Source: Acidimicrobiales bacterium
Lineage (GTDB): Bacteria > Actinomycetota > Acidimicrobiia > Acidimicrobiales > Bog-793
Reading direction: 5' to 3'
Assembly: GCA_035294085.1 (NCBI GenBank)
Contig: DATGLP010000027.1
Location: forward strand, 1-64,000
Length of the DNA: 64,000 bases
Position numbers and translations under genes: made by a program. Below the pieces are notes generated by a model. That model worked only from the letters and a program-made list of their open reading frames with translations. It ran no database searches and was not told the DNA's origin. Below, in pieces: positions 37,433 through 46,193 of the stretch; the first letter of the stretch is position 1; each line of letters starts with the position of its first letter.

Positions 37433-38410
37433 CTAGTGCTGCGACTCGAGGTAGCGCTCGACGTCGATGGCGGCCATGCAGCCCGAACCGGCAGCCGTGA
37501 CCGCCTGGCGGTAGACGCGGTCCTGGACGTCGCCGCAGGCGAAGACGCCGGGCTTGCTCGTCTTCGTCCCGTCGTGGGTGAGGATGTAGCCACCCGCATC
37601 CATGTCGAGCTGGCCGGCGAACAGCCCGGTGCTCGGCGCGTGGCCGATGGCCACGAACAGGCCGGCCACCTCGACCTCGCGCGCCTGGCCCGTCACCGTG
37701 TCGTGCACCTTGAGTGCCCGGACCTTCTGCTCCCCGAGGACCTCGTCGACGACCGTGTCCCACAGGAACGAGATGCGCGGGTTGGAGAGCGCGCGGTCCT
37801 GCATGATCTTCGACGCGCGCAGCTCCTTGCGCCGGTGGATCACGAGGACCGAGCTCGCGAACTTCGAGAGGAAGATGGCCTCTTCGAGCGCGGAGTCGCC
37901 GCCGCCGACGACCGCGACCGGCAGGTTGCGGAAGAAGAAGCCGTCGCAGGTCGCGCACGTCGAGACGCCGTGGCCGAGCAGGCGCGCCTCGCCGGGCACT
38001 CCGAGCATGAGCGAGCGCGCCCCCGTGGCGACGATGAGGGCGCGCGCCCGCACGGCCGGCTCGGCGCTCGCCTCGCTGGTCCAGATTGCGAAGGGCCGCG
38101 AGCCGAGGTCGACTCGGGTCGCCCGCGCCGTCTCGATCTGCGCCCCGAAGCGCAGCGCCTGGCTGCGGAAGCTCGCCATCAGGTCGGGCCCCATCACGCC
38201 GTCGGGGAAGCCCGGGTAGTTCTCGACCTCCGTCGTGAGCATCAGCTGGCCGCCGGGCTGGTCGCTCGTCGACGAGGGCTCGCCTTCGAGCACGAGCGGG
38301 GCGAGGTCGGCCCGCGCGGTGTAGATCGCCGCGGTCAGGCCCGCCGGCCCCGACCCGATGATGACGACGTTGCGCAGCGCACCGTGCGCCCAGCTCTCCT
38401 CGTCAGCCAC
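37433..38410 (-). CDS. trxB: Thioredoxin reductase
   Basis: A 325-residue NADPH-dependent flavoprotein. The FAD site is [20 protein letters not shown] (about 14-33), the redox pair is Cys152/Cys155 in CATCDG, the NADPH site is [14 protein letters not shown], and the C-terminal FAD motif is [13 protein letters not shown] at 38410 overlaps the upstream small membrane gene by eight bases. It feeds electrons to TrxA. Confidence 0.96.
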
Positions 38411-38729
38411 CGTCGCCCCTTCCCGTCCGCCTGCTCGCCCAGAGCAAGAACCCCCCGAGGGTCGCGAAGATTCCCGCCAGCACGAAGTCGGTGGCCCACA
38501 CTCGCCCGGCGAACGCGTCGGCGTCGAGGAGCCGGACGACCCCGACCGTGAAGGCGACGGCCACCCCGATCGCCAAGGTCCCCGCGACGATGGCCGCCGC
38601 GAGGGCGCGTGCCGCGAAGAGGACGGGCCGGACCGAGCGGCCGCGCACGAGCTCGACGACGGACTCGAGCTGCGCGACGGCCCGGGCGGCCCAGTCGTCC
38701 CCCTCCGCTCGCTCGGTCACCGCCGGCAT
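38403..38729 (-). CDS. Small membrane protein of unknown function
   Basis: A 108-residue protein with a cytosolic N-terminus ([16 protein letters not shown]) and two hydrophobic helices (about 42-66 and 78-98) ending in a basic tail. I do not recognise the family. It overlaps trxB by eight bases and follows the signal peptidase gene at 35 bp, so it lies in the same transcriptional run. Proteins of this shape are common just upstream of trxB in actinobacteria. Confidence 0.65.
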
Positions 38730-38764: not shown

Positions 38765-39787
38765 TCAGGCAGACGGCGTCATCGGCGCGACGTGGCCCGT
38801 CCAGCGCTCGCCGTCGAAGTAGCGCAGCTGCGGCTCGCCCGTGAAGTCCGGGTACCAGCCGGCCGGCGCGCCGCCCGCAGCCGAGCGCAGCTCCGCAGCC
38901 ATCGCCTCGAGGTGCTCGGCGGCGAGCGCGAGCGCCTGGACAGCGGCCGTGTGGCTGCGCAGGTGCCCGGCGTACTCGCGCACCGCCTCGACGAGCTCGG
39001 CGAGCGAGCGCTCGATCTCGTCGCTGCGCCGGGTGCTCTCGCCGACCGCTGCAGCGAGCTCGGCGAGCGTCCCGGCGACGGAGGTGGTGCGCGCCGGGAC
39101 GGGGGTGCCGGCGGCGCCGAGAGCCGGCTCGCCTGCCTCGCTCGCCCCGTCGCCGGGGTCGGCGCCTGCGGCAGGCCCGGCGAGCTCGGCGCGGACGCGC
39201 TCGGTCTCCTCGAGGAGGGCCTCGAGCAGCCGCGGCGTCGGGTTCTCCGCGCTGCGCTGCTCGAGCCAGGCGAGCAGGACGTAGACGAGGGCGACGAGCA
39301 GGACCGCGCCGAGGAAGATCTCCCCCTGGCGGCTGCGGAAGAAGAGGAGGAGGTAGCCCGCGTCGGGGACGACTCCGGTCTCGCGCCCGATGAGGTCGCT
39401 CGCCGGGGTCAGGAAGACGTCGGGCCCGGCGTTCGCGTCGCCCTTCGTCTGGAAGACGAGGCCCTGCCTCGTGCGCGTGACGCGCACGACGCGGTGGACG
39501 ACCTCGGCCGGCAGCCCGTACTTCGAGCGGTCCTCGCTCGGGACGGCCACGGCGACGATCTCGCCGACCTTCACCGTGGCGGGGTTCACGCCGTGGAGCA
39601 GGACGAGGTCCCCGGTGCGCAGCACGGGCGCCATCGACTGGCCCTCGACCGGCACGACCGGCGGGTTGACGTGCCAGACGAGCGCGGCGCCGACGTAGGC
39701 GCCAGCCGCTGCGAGGGCGAGGGCGGGGATCGCCGACCAGGCGAGCACCACGGCGATGCGCCGGGCCCGGCCGAGTCGTCGCCTCAC
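38765..39787 (-). CDS. SipW/ER-type signal peptidase I with a C-terminal DUF2510-like domain
   Basis: A 340-residue membrane protease. The N-terminal helix (about 11-36) leads to the catalytic block: Ser51 in EGQSMAPVLRTGD, His98 in VVHRVVRV and Asp117/Asp123 in TKGDANAGPD. Histidine instead of lysine marks the S26B ER/archaeal/SipW type. A second helix (about 155-173) is followed by a long alanine-rich cytosolic coil and a C-terminal AGWYPDFTGEPQLRYFDGERWTGH, a DUF2510-type short domain. The two genes just upstream encode exported proteins with matching signal regions and are the likely substrates. Confidence 0.85.
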   Translation of the reverse strand: MRRRLGRARRIAVVLAWSAIPALALAAAGAYVGAALVWHVNPPVVPVEGQSMAPVLRTGDLVLLHGVNPATVKVGEIVAVAVPSEDRSKYGLPAEVVHRVVRVTRTRQGLVFQTKGDANAGPDVFLTPASDLIGRETGVVPDAGYLLLFFRSRQGEIFLGAVLLVALVYVLLAWLEQRSAENPTPRLLEALLEETERVRAELAGPAAGADPGDGASEAGEPALGAAGTPVPARTTSVAGTLAELAAAVGESTRRSDEIERSLAELVEAVREYAGHLRSHTAAVQALALAAEHLEAMAAELRSAAGGAPAGWYPDFTGEPQLRYFDGERWTGHVAPMTPSA

Positions 39788-39802
39788 CCCAGGCCCTCCG
39801 GC

Positions 39803-40639
39803 TCAGCCGGTCGCGTTCGCCCGGACGAAGAAGCTGAGGCTCCCCGCCTGCGGCTGCTGGCCGTGGGGGTTGCCGCCCGGCGTCACGATCGACAGGCCGA
39901 CGTAGAGCACGCGCTCGGCCAGGTTCGACGCGAGGTAGGACGGGTCGCAGGGGGTGTCCGCGTCGTTCGTCGTGTTCGCCGTGCACAGGACGCTGTCCCC
40001 GCTCGAGCTGAGGTCCTCCTTCGGGAGGAGGTAGCCGCCGAGGCGCGTCTTCGAGAGGAAGAGGGCGCCGGTGTACACCGTCGAGCTCCCGGTCGCGCTC
40101 GTGTCGAGGAGGGCGCAGTACGTGGCGCCGTCGGTCGGGTCGGTGAGGGTGACCGAGGTCGGCGAGTTCGTCACCGTGTAGCTCGTCGCCTGGTTGCACG
40201 CCCCGGTGTGCACGTCGTGGTAGAGGCCGATCGACAGCTGGGCGTTCGGGTTGTTGAGGACCCTGCCGGCGTCGTTCGGGTCGAGCCAGTCGACGCTCAC
40301 CTTCAGGTGGTTCGCCGTCGACGCCGCCGTCGTCACCTTCGCGAGGAGGATCCCCACCTGCTTCAGCGCCTGACCGGTCCGGCGCTGGATCGTGCCGGCG
40401 ACGGGCGTCACCTGGGCCGCGGCGGTGCTCGAGGGGGCGCCGGCGGGCGGGCTGATCGAGGTCGTCGTCGAGCCGGTGGCCCCGAGGTAGAAGAGCGAGC
40501 CGCTCACGAGGGCCGCGAGCGCGACGGCGCTCGCGGCGAGCGCCTTGCGGTGGGCGACGATCCCGCCGCGGCGCGCGGCGGCCGGCGACGCGGCCGTGTG
40601 CGGCGCTGGCCGGGTGGCGGTGGCAGGCGCGCTCGTCAT
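39803..40639 (-). CDS. Exported surface-type protein, probable substrate of the neighbouring SipW-type peptidase
   Basis: A 278-residue protein of no recognised family. A basic N-terminus precedes one hydrophobic segment (about 32-54, ALAASAVALAALVSGSLFYLG) and then ATGSTTTSIS. The mature part is Thr/Ser/Asn-rich with few charges, looks all-beta and contains four cysteines. The gene ends 15 bp before the peptidase start and begins 10 bp after the related gene at 40650-41426. SipW-type peptidases in Bacillus process the fibre proteins TasA/TapA, so a similar extracellular role is inferred. Confidence 0.65.
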   Translation of the reverse strand: MTSAPATATRPAPHTAASPAAARRGGIVAHRKALAASAVALAALVSGSLFYLGATGSTTTSISPPAGAPSSTAAAQVTPVAGTIQRRTGQALKQVGILLAKVTTAASTANHLKVSVDWLDPNDAGRVLNNPNAQLSIGLYHDVHTGACNQATSYTVTNSPTSVTLTDPTDGATYCALLDTSATGSSTVYTGALFLSKTRLGGYLLPKEDLSSSGDSVLCTANTTNDADTPCDPSYLASNLAERVLYVGLSIVTPGGNPHGQQPQAGSLSFFVRANATG

Positions 40640-40649
40640 CGTGCGCGTC

Positions 40650-41426
40650 CTAGTAGGCCTGCGCCGTGAAGTAGAAGGCCGGGCTCAGCGAGGCCGTGGC
40701 GCTCGAGGTCGTCGCGGTGCAGTAGTAGGCGCCGCCGGTCTCCATCGTGATGTCGTAGTAGGCGCCCGGCGGCAGGTTGAAGCTCACCACCCCGGAGTCG
40801 TTCGTGAGGTACGTGACCGAGGTGAGGACGTTCGGCGCCGAGCCGGTGCCGTTCGCCGGCTGCCAGTTGCAGCCGGCCGTCGCTGAGCAGGCGCCGGTGA
40901 GCGGCGCGCTGCCCGCGCCCGAGGTCGAGGCGTAGTAGACGTTGACCGGGAAGGCGAAGGAGCTGTAGTCGGACTGCAGCGCGGCGAGGTTCGTCACGTA
41001 GACGTCGACGAGCAGCCCGTCGGTGACCGAGGTGGCGTCGATGATCGCGAGGTCGCCCGGCGTCGTCACCGAGCCGGCCGTGTTGGCGACGGGGCTCCAG
41101 CTCGGCAGCTGGGCCGTCACGCTCCCCCCGGAGCCGACCGAGCCGCCGTACTTCGTCGAGGTCACGTTCGCCGGCACGGCGGTGGCGTTCGCCCCGGCGA
41201 CGGCGGGGAAGACGTAGTTCGTGCTCGAGCTGCCGGCGCTCACCGAGAGCTGCGTCGTGCCGGTCGCCCCGAGGAAGGACACGCCCATGCTGGCGCCGAG
41301 GACGGCGAGGACGGCCACCCCGAGGGCGAGGAAGCGCCGGCGCAGCGCGCTGCGCCGGCGGGTGCCGGCGAGGAGGTAGGCTCGGCTGGCGCTCGCCGGC
41401 AAGGTCGTGCCCGGTCGCTCGTCCAT
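40650..41426 (-). CDS. Exported surface-type protein with the same signal-region motif
   Basis: A 258-residue protein of no recognised family. An Arg-rich N-terminus (about 1-32) precedes a hydrophobic segment (about 32-54) ending SFLGATGTTQLSVSAG, nearly the same motif as YLGATGSTTTS in its neighbour. The mature part is rich in Ser, Thr, Val, Asn and Tyr, poor in charge, and ends SPAFYFTAQAY. It is first of a run of three closely spaced genes ending in the SipW-type peptidase. The 183 bp upstream includes a TGCCG/CGGCA hairpin about 45 bases before the ATG, of unknown meaning. Confidence 0.65.
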   Translation of the reverse strand: MDERPGTTLPASASRAYLLAGTRRRSALRRRFLALGVAVLAVLGASMGVSFLGATGTTQLSVSAGSSSTNYVFPAVAGANATAVPANVTSTKYGGSVGSGGSVTAQLPSWSPVANTAGSVTTPGDLAIIDATSVTDGLLVDVYVTNLAALQSDYSSFAFPVNVYYASTSGAGSAPLTGACSATAGCNWQPANGTGSAPNVLTSVTYLTNDSGVVSFNLPPGAYYDITMETGGAYYCTATTSSATASLSPAFYFTAQAY

Positions 41427-42446: not shown

Positions 42447-44088
42447 GAGCCCCCCTCGTTCCGCTCGGTGTGTGCCGGGAAGTCTGCCAGCTGGCGAGCG
42501 ACCCCGCTACGCCCGCGCCGCCGAGGTACACGGCGGCGCCGACCGCGACCTCGAGCACGAGCGCGAGCCAGCCCCACGCCCCCCCGCCGGCGCCGAGCAG
42601 CGCCGAGACGAGCGCGACCGCGAACGCCATCAGCAGGCTCAAGGCGGCCGAGCGCGCCGTTGCGGCGAGGAGGCGCCGGCCGCCGATCGTGCCGAGGCGC
42701 TCGCGCAGGACCGCGAGGGCGGCCCCGGCGCCGACCGTGTAGGCGATCGAGTAGGCGAGGGCGAGGCCGCGCGCGCCGAGCGGGTGGTAGAGGAGGGCCG
42801 CGGCGAGCAGGTTCGTCCCGTTCTCGAGCACGTACAGGACGAAGGCGGTACGCGTGTCGCGCATCGCCTGCAGGGCGCGCACGGCGAGGAAGAAGGTGCA
42901 GAACCCGGGCAGGCCGAGGGCGAACATGGCGAGCACCGACGCCGTGAGCCGGGCACTCGCTGCCCCGAAGGCGCCGTGCTCCAAGGTGAGGGTCACGATC
43001 GGCCGTGCCAGCACGAGGTAGCCCACGGCGGCGGGGAGCACGAACGCGAGCGTCTGGCGCAGCGCGACCCCGAGGCGCCGCCCCACCGCGTCGAGACGTC
43101 CGGCGGTGTGCAGCCGGGCGAGGTCGGGCGACGCGACGTTGATCACCGAGACGGCGACGACGGCGAAGGGCAGCTGGAAGAAGGTGAAGCCGTAGGTGTA
43201 GGCGGTGACGTTGCTCGTCCCCAGGTGGAACTCCATCGCGAGCACGACGAAGAGGGCGACCTGGTTCGCCACGACGAAGCCGAAGGTCCAGCCGGACAGC
43301 GCGACGATGGCGCGCACCGCCGGGTCGCGCGGCCGCCAGCGGAACGAGACGCGCACCTTCGCGCGGCGCAGCGCGGGGACGAGGGCGAGGGCCTGCAGCG
43401 CCACCCCCGCGGTCGTGCCGACCCCGAGGAAGGCGATGAGCGCACGGTCGTGGAGCACCGCCCCGCTCTCGACGGCCCGGCGCCCGGCGAGGGCGGCGAA
43501 GACGGCGAGCACCACGATGGCGACGACGTTGTTGACGACGGGGGCGAAGCCGACCGCCCCGAAGCGGTCCTTCGTCGCGAGCAGCGCCGAGGCGATGCTG
43601 ATCGCGCCGTAGAAGAGCAGCTGGGGGGCGAAGAGCCGGAGCAGCGTGACGGCGATGGCGTGCTCGGTCGGCGTCGCCCTGCCGAGGGTGAGGAGGTCGA
43701 TGATCGCCGGGGCCCCGAGCACGAGGAGCACCGTCGCGGCGACGAGGACCGTGCCGGCCAGCGTCACGACCGCCGACATCGACGCCTCCGCCTGGCGCAG
43801 CGGGCGGGTGGCGAGCTGGTCGACGAAGACCGGCACGAACGTGGCCGCCAGGACCCCACCGAGCACGAGGTCGTGCACCATGTTCGGGGTGTTGTTGGCG
43901 AGGTTGAAGGCGTCGGCGAGCCGCAGGCCGCCGAGGGCGTAGGCCGCGACGACGAGGCGCACGAGGCCGGTAGCCCGCGACAGCAGCGTCCCGAGGCCGG
44001 TCCCGACCGAGGCGCGCGCGAGGCGCGCCCGTCGTCGGCTCGCTCGCTCGAGGCGGGCTGCGGCCGGCGGGGCGCTGCCGCCGCTCAC
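42412..44088 (-). CDS. murJ: Lipid II flippase MurJ
   Basis: A 558-residue membrane protein of the MOP superfamily with about 14 helices. It carries lipid II across the membrane for peptidoglycan synthesis. Family segments include GTGLGTLLSRATGLVRLVVAAYALG, ADAFNLANNTPNMVHDLVLGGVLAATFVPVF and ALGLPGFCTFFLAVRALQAMRDTRTAF. Mycobacterial MurJ has a long C-terminal kinase-like and extracellular extension; here the protein stops after the membrane core. GTG overlaps the upstream DUF6049 stop (GTGA). Confidence 0.93.
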   Translation of the reverse strand: MSGGSAPPAAARLERASRRRARLARASVGTGLGTLLSRATGLVRLVVAAYALGGLRLADAFNLANNTPNMVHDLVLGGVLAATFVPVFVDQLATRPLRQAEASMSAVVTLAGTVLVAATVLLVLGAPAIIDLLTLGRATPTEHAIAVTLLRLFAPQLLFYGAISIASALLATKDRFGAVGFAPVVNNVVAIVVLAVFAALAGRRAVESGAVLHDRALIAFLGVGTTAGVALQALALVPALRRAKVRVSFRWRPRDPAVRAIVALSGWTFGFVVANQVALFVVLAMEFHLGTSNVTAYTYGFTFFQLPFAVVAVSVINVASPDLARLHTAGRLDAVGRRLGVALRQTLAFVLPAAVGYLVLARPIVTLTLEHGAFGAASARLTASVLAMFALGLPGFCTFFLAVRALQAMRDTRTAFVLYVLENGTNLLAAALLYHPLGARGLALAYSIAYTVGAGAALAVLRERLGTIGGRRLLAATARSAALSLLMAFAVALVSALLGAGGGAWGWLALVLEVAVGAAVYLGGAGVAGSLASWQTSRHTPSGTRGARGDRNRHRRGG

Positions 44089-46193
44089 GCCGGGGGCGCC
44101 GGCTCGCGCCCGACGGCGGACCGCCGCCGGTGGCGGAGCACCGAGCGCCACCACCAGGCCGCGAGCACGAGGAGGGCTCCGAGCGAGAGCGCGATGACGG
44201 CGCCCGAGATCGCCGTCGAGCGGACGTTGAAGGTCGTCTTGAGGAGGATCGCGTGGCCGAGCGGCGTGAGGACCACGACGTCGAGCGGGAAGACGCCCGA
44301 GGTCCGGGCCGTGACCCGGAAGGAGAAGCCGTTGTCCTTCGGCCGGAGCACGACCGTGCGGGCGAAGCCGTCGGGGAAGGCCAGTCTGCTCGAGCGCACC
44401 TCGAGGAGGGCGTGGAGCGAAGGGACCGAACGAGGCAGGTCCGCGACGAGGGTGAGGGGCACCTTGGCGCTCGGCGCCGTGAGCGTCACCGTGCGCGCTC
44501 CCCCGGCGATGGAGACCCAGCTGCGCAGCTCGTCGAAGGCCTCCGCGGGCGCCGAGAGGTAGCGCCGGCGCTCGGGCGCCGAGATGCCTGCCGACTCGGC
44601 GAGGTAGATGGCGTCGCTGAGGTCCTGGCGCAGCGGCAGCTCGCGTCGGTCGGCGAGCACGGACGCGACGATGGCGGCCTCGGCCCGGGCGCGCGCGACG
44701 GCGGCACGCGTCGCACCGGGAGGCCCGGCGCGCGCGGCGGCGAGGGTGGCCGAGAGGGGTCCGCCGTTCGCCCCCGGCAGCACGTCGTTGAAGGCGTCGG
44801 CGAGCGTGACCGCGCTGACCGTCGCACCGGGCGTCCCCGGCGCGAGCGCGTGCAGGATGGTGCCGAGGAAGGCCGTGCTGCCGCCCCACGTCGTCGGGGT
44901 GACCACGACGGCGCGCCCCTGCGCGGCCGCTGGCTCGTCGAAGTAGATCTGGGCGAGCTCGGCGAGGAAGCGGTGGGCCTCGAGGACCGGGTCGTCGCCG
45001 GCGCGCGAGAAGTAGCTCGCGAGCTCGGGGTCGGCGCCGAAGGCGTCGGTCGAGGCCGGTGGCGTCGAGCCGGACGCGAGGGCGACCGGGGCCGTCGGCG
45101 TCTGCGGTCCCCACTGCGCGGCGAGGTTCGACGCGGGCACCACGAGGTCGTGGACGCCGGAATGGTCGAGGAGGGCGAGGGCGGCCGCGTCGAGCGCCGT
45201 GTACGACACGTAGGGGCTCGGCGCCGGGCGCGTCCCGAGGAGGGCGGCGTCGACCTGCTCCCCGCGGCGGAGCTGGTCCGCCCACTGCGCGCCGAGGCCC
45301 GCGGCGGCGAGCGAGGCCAGCCCGACGGGCGCGAAGGGGGTGCCGAGGACCTCGAGGTTCGGCGAGCCGCCCGTGAGGAGGCGTTGCAGGGCGGCGAGCG
45401 CGCGGCGGGCCACGGCCGTGCGCGTGCGGGAGAGCGCGAGGAGCGCCTGCGGGTAGACCTCGAGGGTGGCGGGGGTGCTCGGGTTCGCGGCGACGACCTG
45501 CGCGAGGTGCTCGATCGAGGCCGTCGCGGTCGGGCCGAGCGTCGGCGCGCCCGTCGCGTCGAGGAGCGGGCGCAGCCCGACGGGCAGGACGATGGCGACC
45601 TCGAGCGGGCGGCCACCCTCGTCGGCGACGTAGACGAGGTGCGTCGTGAACGCGGCGAGCGGGGAGGCCAGCGGATCGGGCGCGGCGCGGTCGAGCAGGA
45701 CGACGCGCAGGGGGTAGACGCCGTCGCAGCGGGTCGTGCACTCCAGGCCGAGCACCGGTGTGCGACCTGCCGCTGCGGGGGGCGTGGACCCGGTCACGAC
45801 CCTGAGGTGCAGCAGCACGTTCGCCGTCCGCCTGCCTCGTGCGGCGAGCTCGGCGAGGGGCACGGGCGGCGGTGCGGCGAGCGGGAGGGTGCTCGGCGTC
45901 CCCTCGAGCGACTCCTGGAAGGCGGTGCGGTTGGGGAGCTGGGGGTAGAGCACCACCTTGAGCGCGAGGCGCGACAGCGGCAGCGGGGACGCGACGCGCA
46001 GCCCGAGCACCATCGTGCTGCCCCGGACCCAGGTGGTCTGGCTCGTGAGCTCGAGCGACGACGTGCCCGACGCCGCCTCGGCGGGCGTCGCCGGGGCGAG
46101 GAGGACGGCGGCGGTAAGGAGCGCCGCGGGGAGGGCGGCGAGCAGGCGCCGGGCCGGTGACGGCGGGGGCGAGGGTCGCGGGCACGACGCCAC
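44085..46193 (-). CDS. DUF6049 family exported membrane-anchored protein
   Basis: A 702-residue protein in the place of mycobacterial Rv3909, always next to murJ. A signal peptide (about 13-40, LLAALPAALLTAAVLLAPATPAEA) is followed by a large extracytoplasmic region and one C-terminal helix (about 655-680) with a basic tail, so most of it faces outside. The family has no established function; linkage suggests a role with MurJ in wall synthesis. It starts at GTG and is divergent from the deacetylase-like gene. Confidence 0.85.
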   Translation of the reverse strand: MASCPRPSPPPSPARRLLAALPAALLTAAVLLAPATPAEAASGTSSLELTSQTTWVRGSTMVLGLRVASPLPLSRLALKVVLYPQLPNRTAFQESLEGTPSTLPLAAPPPVPLAELAARGRRTANVLLHLRVVTGSTPPAAAGRTPVLGLECTTRCDGVYPLRVVLLDRAAPDPLASPLAAFTTHLVYVADEGGRPLEVAIVLPVGLRPLLDATGAPTLGPTATASIEHLAQVVAANPSTPATLEVYPQALLALSRTRTAVARRALAALQRLLTGGSPNLEVLGTPFAPVGLASLAAAGLGAQWADQLRRGEQVDAALLGTRPAPSPYVSYTALDAAALALLDHSGVHDLVVPASNLAAQWGPQTPTAPVALASGSTPPASTDAFGADPELASYFSRAGDDPVLEAHRFLAELAQIYFDEPAAAQGRAVVVTPTTWGGSTAFLGTILHALAPGTPGATVSAVTLADAFNDVLPGANGGPLSATLAAARAGPPGATRAAVARARAEAAIVASVLADRRELPLRQDLSDAIYLAESAGISAPERRRYLSAPAEAFDELRSWVSIAGGARTVTLTAPSAKVPLTLVADLPRSVPSLHALLEVRSSRLAFPDGFARTVVLRPKDNGFSFRVTARTSGVFPLDVVVLTPLGHAILLKTTFNVRSTAISGAVIALSLGALLVLAAWWWRSVLRHRRRSAVGREPAPPA

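Follow-up and report, generated by a model that had tools for sequence, protein, structure and literature searches.

A putative export-and-assembly operon with a diverged SipW-like signal peptidase in an Acidimicrobiales bacterium

Three adjacent genes in an Acidimicrobiales bacterium encode two exported proteins, A and B, and a signal peptidase of the S26B class, and the trio is conserved as a unit in four lineages. The genes lie in a stretch of 64,000 nt that was analyzed as a whole (the window) and that belongs to a source assembly of 2.4 Mb. The active-site residues of the peptidase are invariant, a tail motif marks its clade, and A and B carry one signal motif in front of otherwise unrelated bodies. 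We lean, with some reserve, toward the view that the locus is a dedicated export-and-assembly operon and a diverged relative of the SipW/TasA system, in which the peptidase would cut A and B and a filament would form.

Gene layout and conservation of the trio

The positions of the three minus-strand genes given in a preliminary description of the window were confirmed (Table 1). The third-position GC excess of all three is coding-like (0.37–0.42), and homologs of A, B and the peptidase are all present in other genomes. The genes are separated by 10 bases (A/B) and 15 bases (B/peptidase), and a GGAGG motif precedes the GTG start codon of the peptidase gene. A sigma-70-like promoter was not found in the region, a result that is uninformative for an organism of this kind.

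Table 1. Positions of the genes and sequence features of the operon in the window
Feature	Coordinates	Strand	Size or residues	Remark
Exported protein A	40650..41426	-	258 aa	Coordinates confirmed
Exported protein B	39803..40639	-	278 aa	Coordinates confirmed
S26B signal peptidase	38765..39787	-	340 aa, GTG start	TIGR02228
Signal-region motif in A	41241..41276	-	F51-V62	Predicted cleavage region at residues 56-58
Signal-region motif in B	40454..40492	-	F50-I62	Predicted cleavage region at residues 56-58
Tail motif EYAGHLRSHT	38948..38977	-	Peptidase residues 271-280	Conserved in the clade
DUF2510 domain	38774..38863	-	Peptidase residues 309-338, C-terminus	Pfam PF10708

The order A-B-peptidase was found in the window, in a genome of the same family and a different genus (G003, locus L003), at the locus L004, and in G247, a genome of a different family that is listed as belonging to the same class only. 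Thus, the three-gene order proposed for inspection in relatives is kept in four lineages. The flanks are DegV/murJ and trxB in the window; in G003 the module is followed by genes that were identified by eye, from their translations, as an acetyltransferase gene and an RlmN-like gene. As the flanks differ in all four lineages, the conserved unit is the trio itself. The earlier placement of the operon between murJ and trxB named the right region and needs the addition of two intervening genes, a DegV-family gene on the murJ side and a gene for a 108-aa membrane protein on the trxB side. The significance attached to this position did not hold up, because other lineages have other neighbors.

Several genes around the trio were noted in passing. 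The 108-aa membrane protein (window 38403-38729, minus strand) has a weak match, below the cut-off, to actinobacterial Holin-X. A gene for a CwlM-like protein with peptidoglycan-binding domains lies nearby, as do trxB and murJ, and ParA- and ParB-like genes near the operon were assigned by reading translations. A secreted protein of 702 aa, which has a membrane segment at its C-terminus and matches no Pfam model at E<=0.01, is encoded next to murJ (window 44085-46193, minus strand). Directly downstream of the module, L004 encodes a DivIVA-domain protein and a lytic transglycosylase (L004:7275-8860), and in the downstream flank of G247 an M23 peptidase follows directly after the module (L057:7620-8414).

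Within the family the module is sporadic, because it was present in only two of about 35 genomes searched, that of the window (G000) and G003. B was found only beside a tailed peptidase, and the sole relative of A outside these loci is a paralog (P0010) elsewhere in the genome of the window. The presence of substrate genes without the peptidase in most relatives, or the loss of the motif from their homologs, would have spoken against a dedicated module; neither was observed, with this paralog on contig C4, which lacks the motif, as the single exception. With B confined to the neighborhood of the peptidase and with trio and motif kept in four lineages, the dedicated secretion module suggested by the preliminary description is well supported.

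The A paralog (L022:1411-2169, minus strand; C4:40773-41366 in its own genome; also L059:6684-7442) is 34-35% identical to A and has a short N-region without the LGATG motif. On its contig no strong S26B match and no adjoining peptidase gene were found, and the paralog is apparently matured by another route. Weak profile matches to A in nine other genomes (L063-L072, L074; E 1e-6 to 1e-3) did not represent A homologs; the readable frames behind them are basic N-termini or transmembrane stretches of unrelated proteins, by eye, e.g., peptidyl-prolyl isomerases and FtsQ-like and LytR-like proteins. Likewise, a low-scoring match to B in G371 was rejected as a homolog, and so were phylum-wide matches to B (E 7e-5 to 9e-4), which had low scores and were nearly all limited to the signal region.

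The peptidase and its tail

The peptidase is an S26B (ER/archaeal-type) signal peptidase. It matched the model of the archaeal/ER-type signal peptidase I (TIGR02228) over residues 28-170 with 88 bits (cut-off 51.85 bits, E 5.7e-25), and the nearest solved structures of its catalytic domain are human SEC11A (E 2.4e-7) and SEC11C. Archaeal signal peptidases are of the S26B type. SEC11A and SEC11C of the eukaryotic ER signal peptidase have the same Ser-His active site, but they belong to a multisubunit complex that serves many substrates and have no tail of the kind found here. The designation as SipW-type is correct at the level of the superfamily and does not extend to the SipW equivalog NF046067, for which the score of 41.8 bits is far below the cut-off of 190 bits; furthermore, the substrates lack the SipW-cognate signal.

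Alignment with SEC11A revealed a Ser-His active site followed by Asp residues, in which Ser51 is situated just past the first transmembrane segment. Ser51, His98, Asp117 and Asp123 are invariant in the six orthologs. Two members of the previously named triad, Ser51 and His98, can thus be retained, whereas the choice of Asp117 as the third is not compelling, as Asp123 is invariant too. Of the corresponding SipW residues, Asp100 and Asp106, we take Asp106 to be the critical one, and Asp123 would then be the likelier catalytic acid.

The hydropathy profile contains two membrane segments (residues 11-29 and 157-175), and the N-side is basic, so that the 165-residue tail is predicted to lie in the cytosol and the catalytic domain outside. 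The cytosolic, DUF2510-like tail of the preliminary description was borne out by this predicted topology and by a match to PF10708 above the cut-off (42.3 versus 24 bits, E 5.9e-11). DUF2510 is confined to two of the six orthologs, those of the window and G003, and therefore it appears to be a late or optional addition and no defining part of the peptidase clade. A second DUF2510 copy in the genome (G000:C18:57284-57400, L002) is 46% identical to the C-terminus of the peptidase.

The conserved element of the tail is EYxxHLxSHT rather than DUF2510. It is present in six of six clade members, whereas all 52 other S26B peptidases, which were taken from the collected loci, lack it. Searching with a profile of the whole peptidase led to two of these members, the further lineages G402 and G328, in which the tail element (EYGYHLRSHTQILQSMSVAS) directly follows the second transmembrane segment and one exported protein is encoded upstream of the tailed peptidase. 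Maximum-likelihood analysis of 58 peptidase domains placed the six tailed peptidases in one group (support 96/90), inside which the four that are encoded with A and B group together (support 98/77).

The loci L114:4596-6040 and L115:1025-2537 contain a tailed S26B peptidase and an upstream exported protein of 224-226 aa, for which no accepted family match and no profile match to A or B was found. The exported protein of G402 and G328 was considered, by eye, as a remote A and rejected, as the profile comparison yielded an E of 0.004 over 16 columns.

Signal region and predicted folds of A and B

A starts with a long basic N-terminus, which is followed by a hydrophobic stretch, the motif F51-LGATGTTQLSV and a beta-rich mature domain. 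B has the same signal region (YLGATGSTTTSI) in front of an unrelated body, the mature domain of which is also beta-rich. The family profiles of A and B align in the signal region only (44 columns, E 4.5e-5). The common FLGATGTT / YLGATGST reported previously is exact and above chance, and no other one among 166 signal or transmembrane proteins of the collected loci contained the core of the pattern. The Ser/Thr richness ascribed to both proteins was also verified, with 27% Ser+Thr in mature A and 24% in mature B.

Across the four lineages, the motif reads GVSFLGATGTTQLSV, GVSFLGSTGTTSISI, GVSFLANSGTASPSI and GVGFAQDAGTSTVSV in A and LFYLGATGSTTTSIS, LFFLGTTGTSSLSIT, SFALGNSGASSASIT and SFFGSGSGGASGGAS in B. 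In all eight members the hydrophobic stretch is followed by a small-Gly-small step, and with a cut after window residue 57 the positions -3 and -1 would be occupied by small residues in each of them; we infer that the cleavage region comprises residues 56-58. The sequence common to A and B extends from the hydrophobic stretch over the predicted cut to the start of the mature protein (S-[I/V]-[S/T]). Such an extent is in line with recognition by a single peptidase and also with a shared donor strand. Two unrelated bodies that apparently share one signal type would be expected if a single peptidase recognizes both.

Neither protein could be assigned to a family, in agreement with the preliminary description: A and B had no match at E<=1 to any Pfam or NCBIfam model. 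At the same threshold they matched neither the SipW-cognate signal TIGR04088 nor, at variance with the TasA precedent invoked there, the TasA/CalY models (NF046066 and camelysin, PF12389). Profile comparisons with canonical substrates gave E values of 0.012-0.022 over short stretches alone, and sequence searches with A and B against solved structures retrieved nothing meaningful. As a positive control, three canonical substrates from sister genomes exceeded the TIGR04088 cut-off, and most control substrates encoded beside other S26B peptidases of the order matched TIGR04088 and/or the TasA model. The absence of such matches for A and B is therefore informative. Together with the results for NF046067 and TasA, it points to a diverged SipW-like module and not to the Bacillus system itself.

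This is also seen in a direct comparison with known loci. Like the operon in the window, tapA-sipW-tasA of Bacillus subtilis combines an S26B peptidase with two exported proteins that resemble each other in their signal and N-terminal regions, and its beta-sandwich subunit may have a counterpart in A. In contrast, the substrates in the window have no TIGR04088 signal and no sequence match to TasA or camelysin, the gene order is A-B-peptidase, the host is actinobacterial, and the peptidase has a long cytosolic tail with EYxxHLxSHT and DUF2510. Canonical actinobacterial SipW clusters (signal LGTFATFTD; e.g., L092, L081, L009), which are common in this order, share the peptidase superfamily and the adjacent exported proteins. 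However, their substrates match TIGR04088 and/or TasA models (L092, L081), unlike A and B, and their peptidases have no tail motif and branch outside the tailed clade. A literature search found no paper that names SipW together with a term beginning with Acidimicrobi-.

AlphaFold models of A and B were built separately from three-row alignments. Both are of low confidence, with a pTM of 0.53 for A, in which parts of the mature domain are near pLDDT 70, and a pTM of 0.45 for B. In comparison with the PDB, the A model retrieved five archaeal cannula entries (Z 9.1, 9.1, 8.8, 8.7 and 7.1) ahead of the next unrelated structure (Z 6.3), and the best match, to CanA, covered 132 aligned residues with an rmsd of 3.6. 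Cannula subunits also led for B (Z 5.9, 5.7 and 5.0; next 4.5), with CanA again as the best match (rmsd 3.6, 110 aligned) at a Z that is within the noise range. Evidence for a cannula-like fold is thus suggestive in the case of A and weak in that of B, and, as the confidence of the models is low, the match could reflect a common jelly-roll arrangement. TasA was not among the structural matches listed, which is no evidence of its absence.

The cannula subunits CanA and Hyper2 (Pyrodictium, Hyperthermus), the best fold matches of both proteins, form hollow tubes of hyperthermophilic archaea and polymerize via the N-terminus. They have no detectable sequence similarity to A or B, and CanA was not recovered in profile searches of PDB sequences with the two proteins. 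The surface assembly envisaged earlier is plausible from these low-confidence cannula-like folds, and the TasA/CalY models give it no match.

Proposed mechanism and alternatives

TasA polymerizes into fibers through a donor strand at its N-terminus, beginning at the SipW cut, and the N-terminus of TapA resembles this strand (PMC9674648; PMC4551309). CanA loses the ability to polymerize when its first residues are missing (PMC12326000). For the operon in the window, we hypothesize that A and B would be exported by Sec and cut by the co-encoded peptidase (Ser51-His98 with Asp123) at the [small]-G-[small] step, residues 56-58. The cut would free an N-terminus x-S-[I/V]-[S/T] that may serve as the donor strand. 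A would then polymerize into a beta-sandwich surface filament, with B as a partner, a second subunit or a starter, as TapA is to TasA, and the EYxxHLxSHT tail probably serves as a docking site for a cytosolic partner or for the long basic N-regions of A and B. Counting against this proposal are the A paralog P0010, which has neither the motif nor an adjoining peptidase, the tailed peptidases of G402 and G328, which stand beside a single exported protein that matches neither A nor B by profile, and the rarity of the module together with the lack of a sequence link to TasA, CalY or CanA.

Dedicated processing could also take place without fibers, if A and B were non-polymerizing binding proteins that are secreted or wall-associated, e.g., jelly-rolls that bind carbohydrate or the wall. 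We consider this unlikely, while giving it serious weight: jelly-roll carbohydrate-binding modules and adhesin domains are among the weaker structural matches, and the genes downstream of the module are wall-related in two lineages (DivIVA and lytic transglycosylase at L004, M23 peptidase in G247). However, cannula subunits outrank the carbohydrate-binding and adhesin entries for A (Z 9.1 versus 6.3) and lead for B, and the stretch common to A and B reaches past the cut as far as the N-terminal residues of the mature protein (SI/SV), the place of the donor strand in TasA. Also unlikely is a variant with filaments that form a class of their own, with cannula/TasA-like A and B, a separate peptidase clade and a new signal type; the tail would dock the N-regions of the precursors or link export with the cell cycle or the wall machinery.

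Strict co-conservation of A, B and the peptidase in four lineages, full retention of the catalytic residues, and a signal motif that A and B, although unrelated in their bodies, have in common and that the peptidase-less paralog lacks all make it improbable that A and B are membrane-anchored, either uncleaved or cleaved by LepB, while the peptidase serves other substrates or regulates via its tail. The length of the basic N-regions, hydrophobic stretches that could act as anchors, the existence of an A paralog without a peptidase, and a tail more diagnostic of the clade than any other feature would be in line with it, as would the second, regulatory role of Bacillus SipW that is cited in PMC13082335. 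An ordinary SipW/TasA locus, i.e., a plain member of the known family, shares the enzyme superfamily and the scheme of a peptidase encoded with two exported proteins and would be one of many in this order, but it is very improbable in view of the NF046067 score (41.8 versus 190 bits), the lack of TIGR04088 and TasA matches for A and B where most canonical control substrates have them, the different signal motif, and a tail that none of the 52 other S26B peptidases has.

If the locus is indeed a diverged export-and-assembly operon, modules of an S26B peptidase and fiber subunits would be a more diverse group than the annotated SipW/TasA type, and such modules would escape the present signal model TIGR04088. 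The archaeal cannula/TasA fold would extend to little-studied actinobacteria, in which surface filaments are poorly known, and the tail motif would offer a sequence handle for finding further modules.

A feature of the substrates of the tailed clade (window, L003, L004, L057, L114, L115) is an Arg-rich N-region of about 25-45 residues before the hydrophobic stretch, lengths that depend on the predicted start codons, versus 5-19 residues in many canonical SipW substrates. These long Arg-rich N-regions might be the partner of the cytosolic tail of the peptidase.
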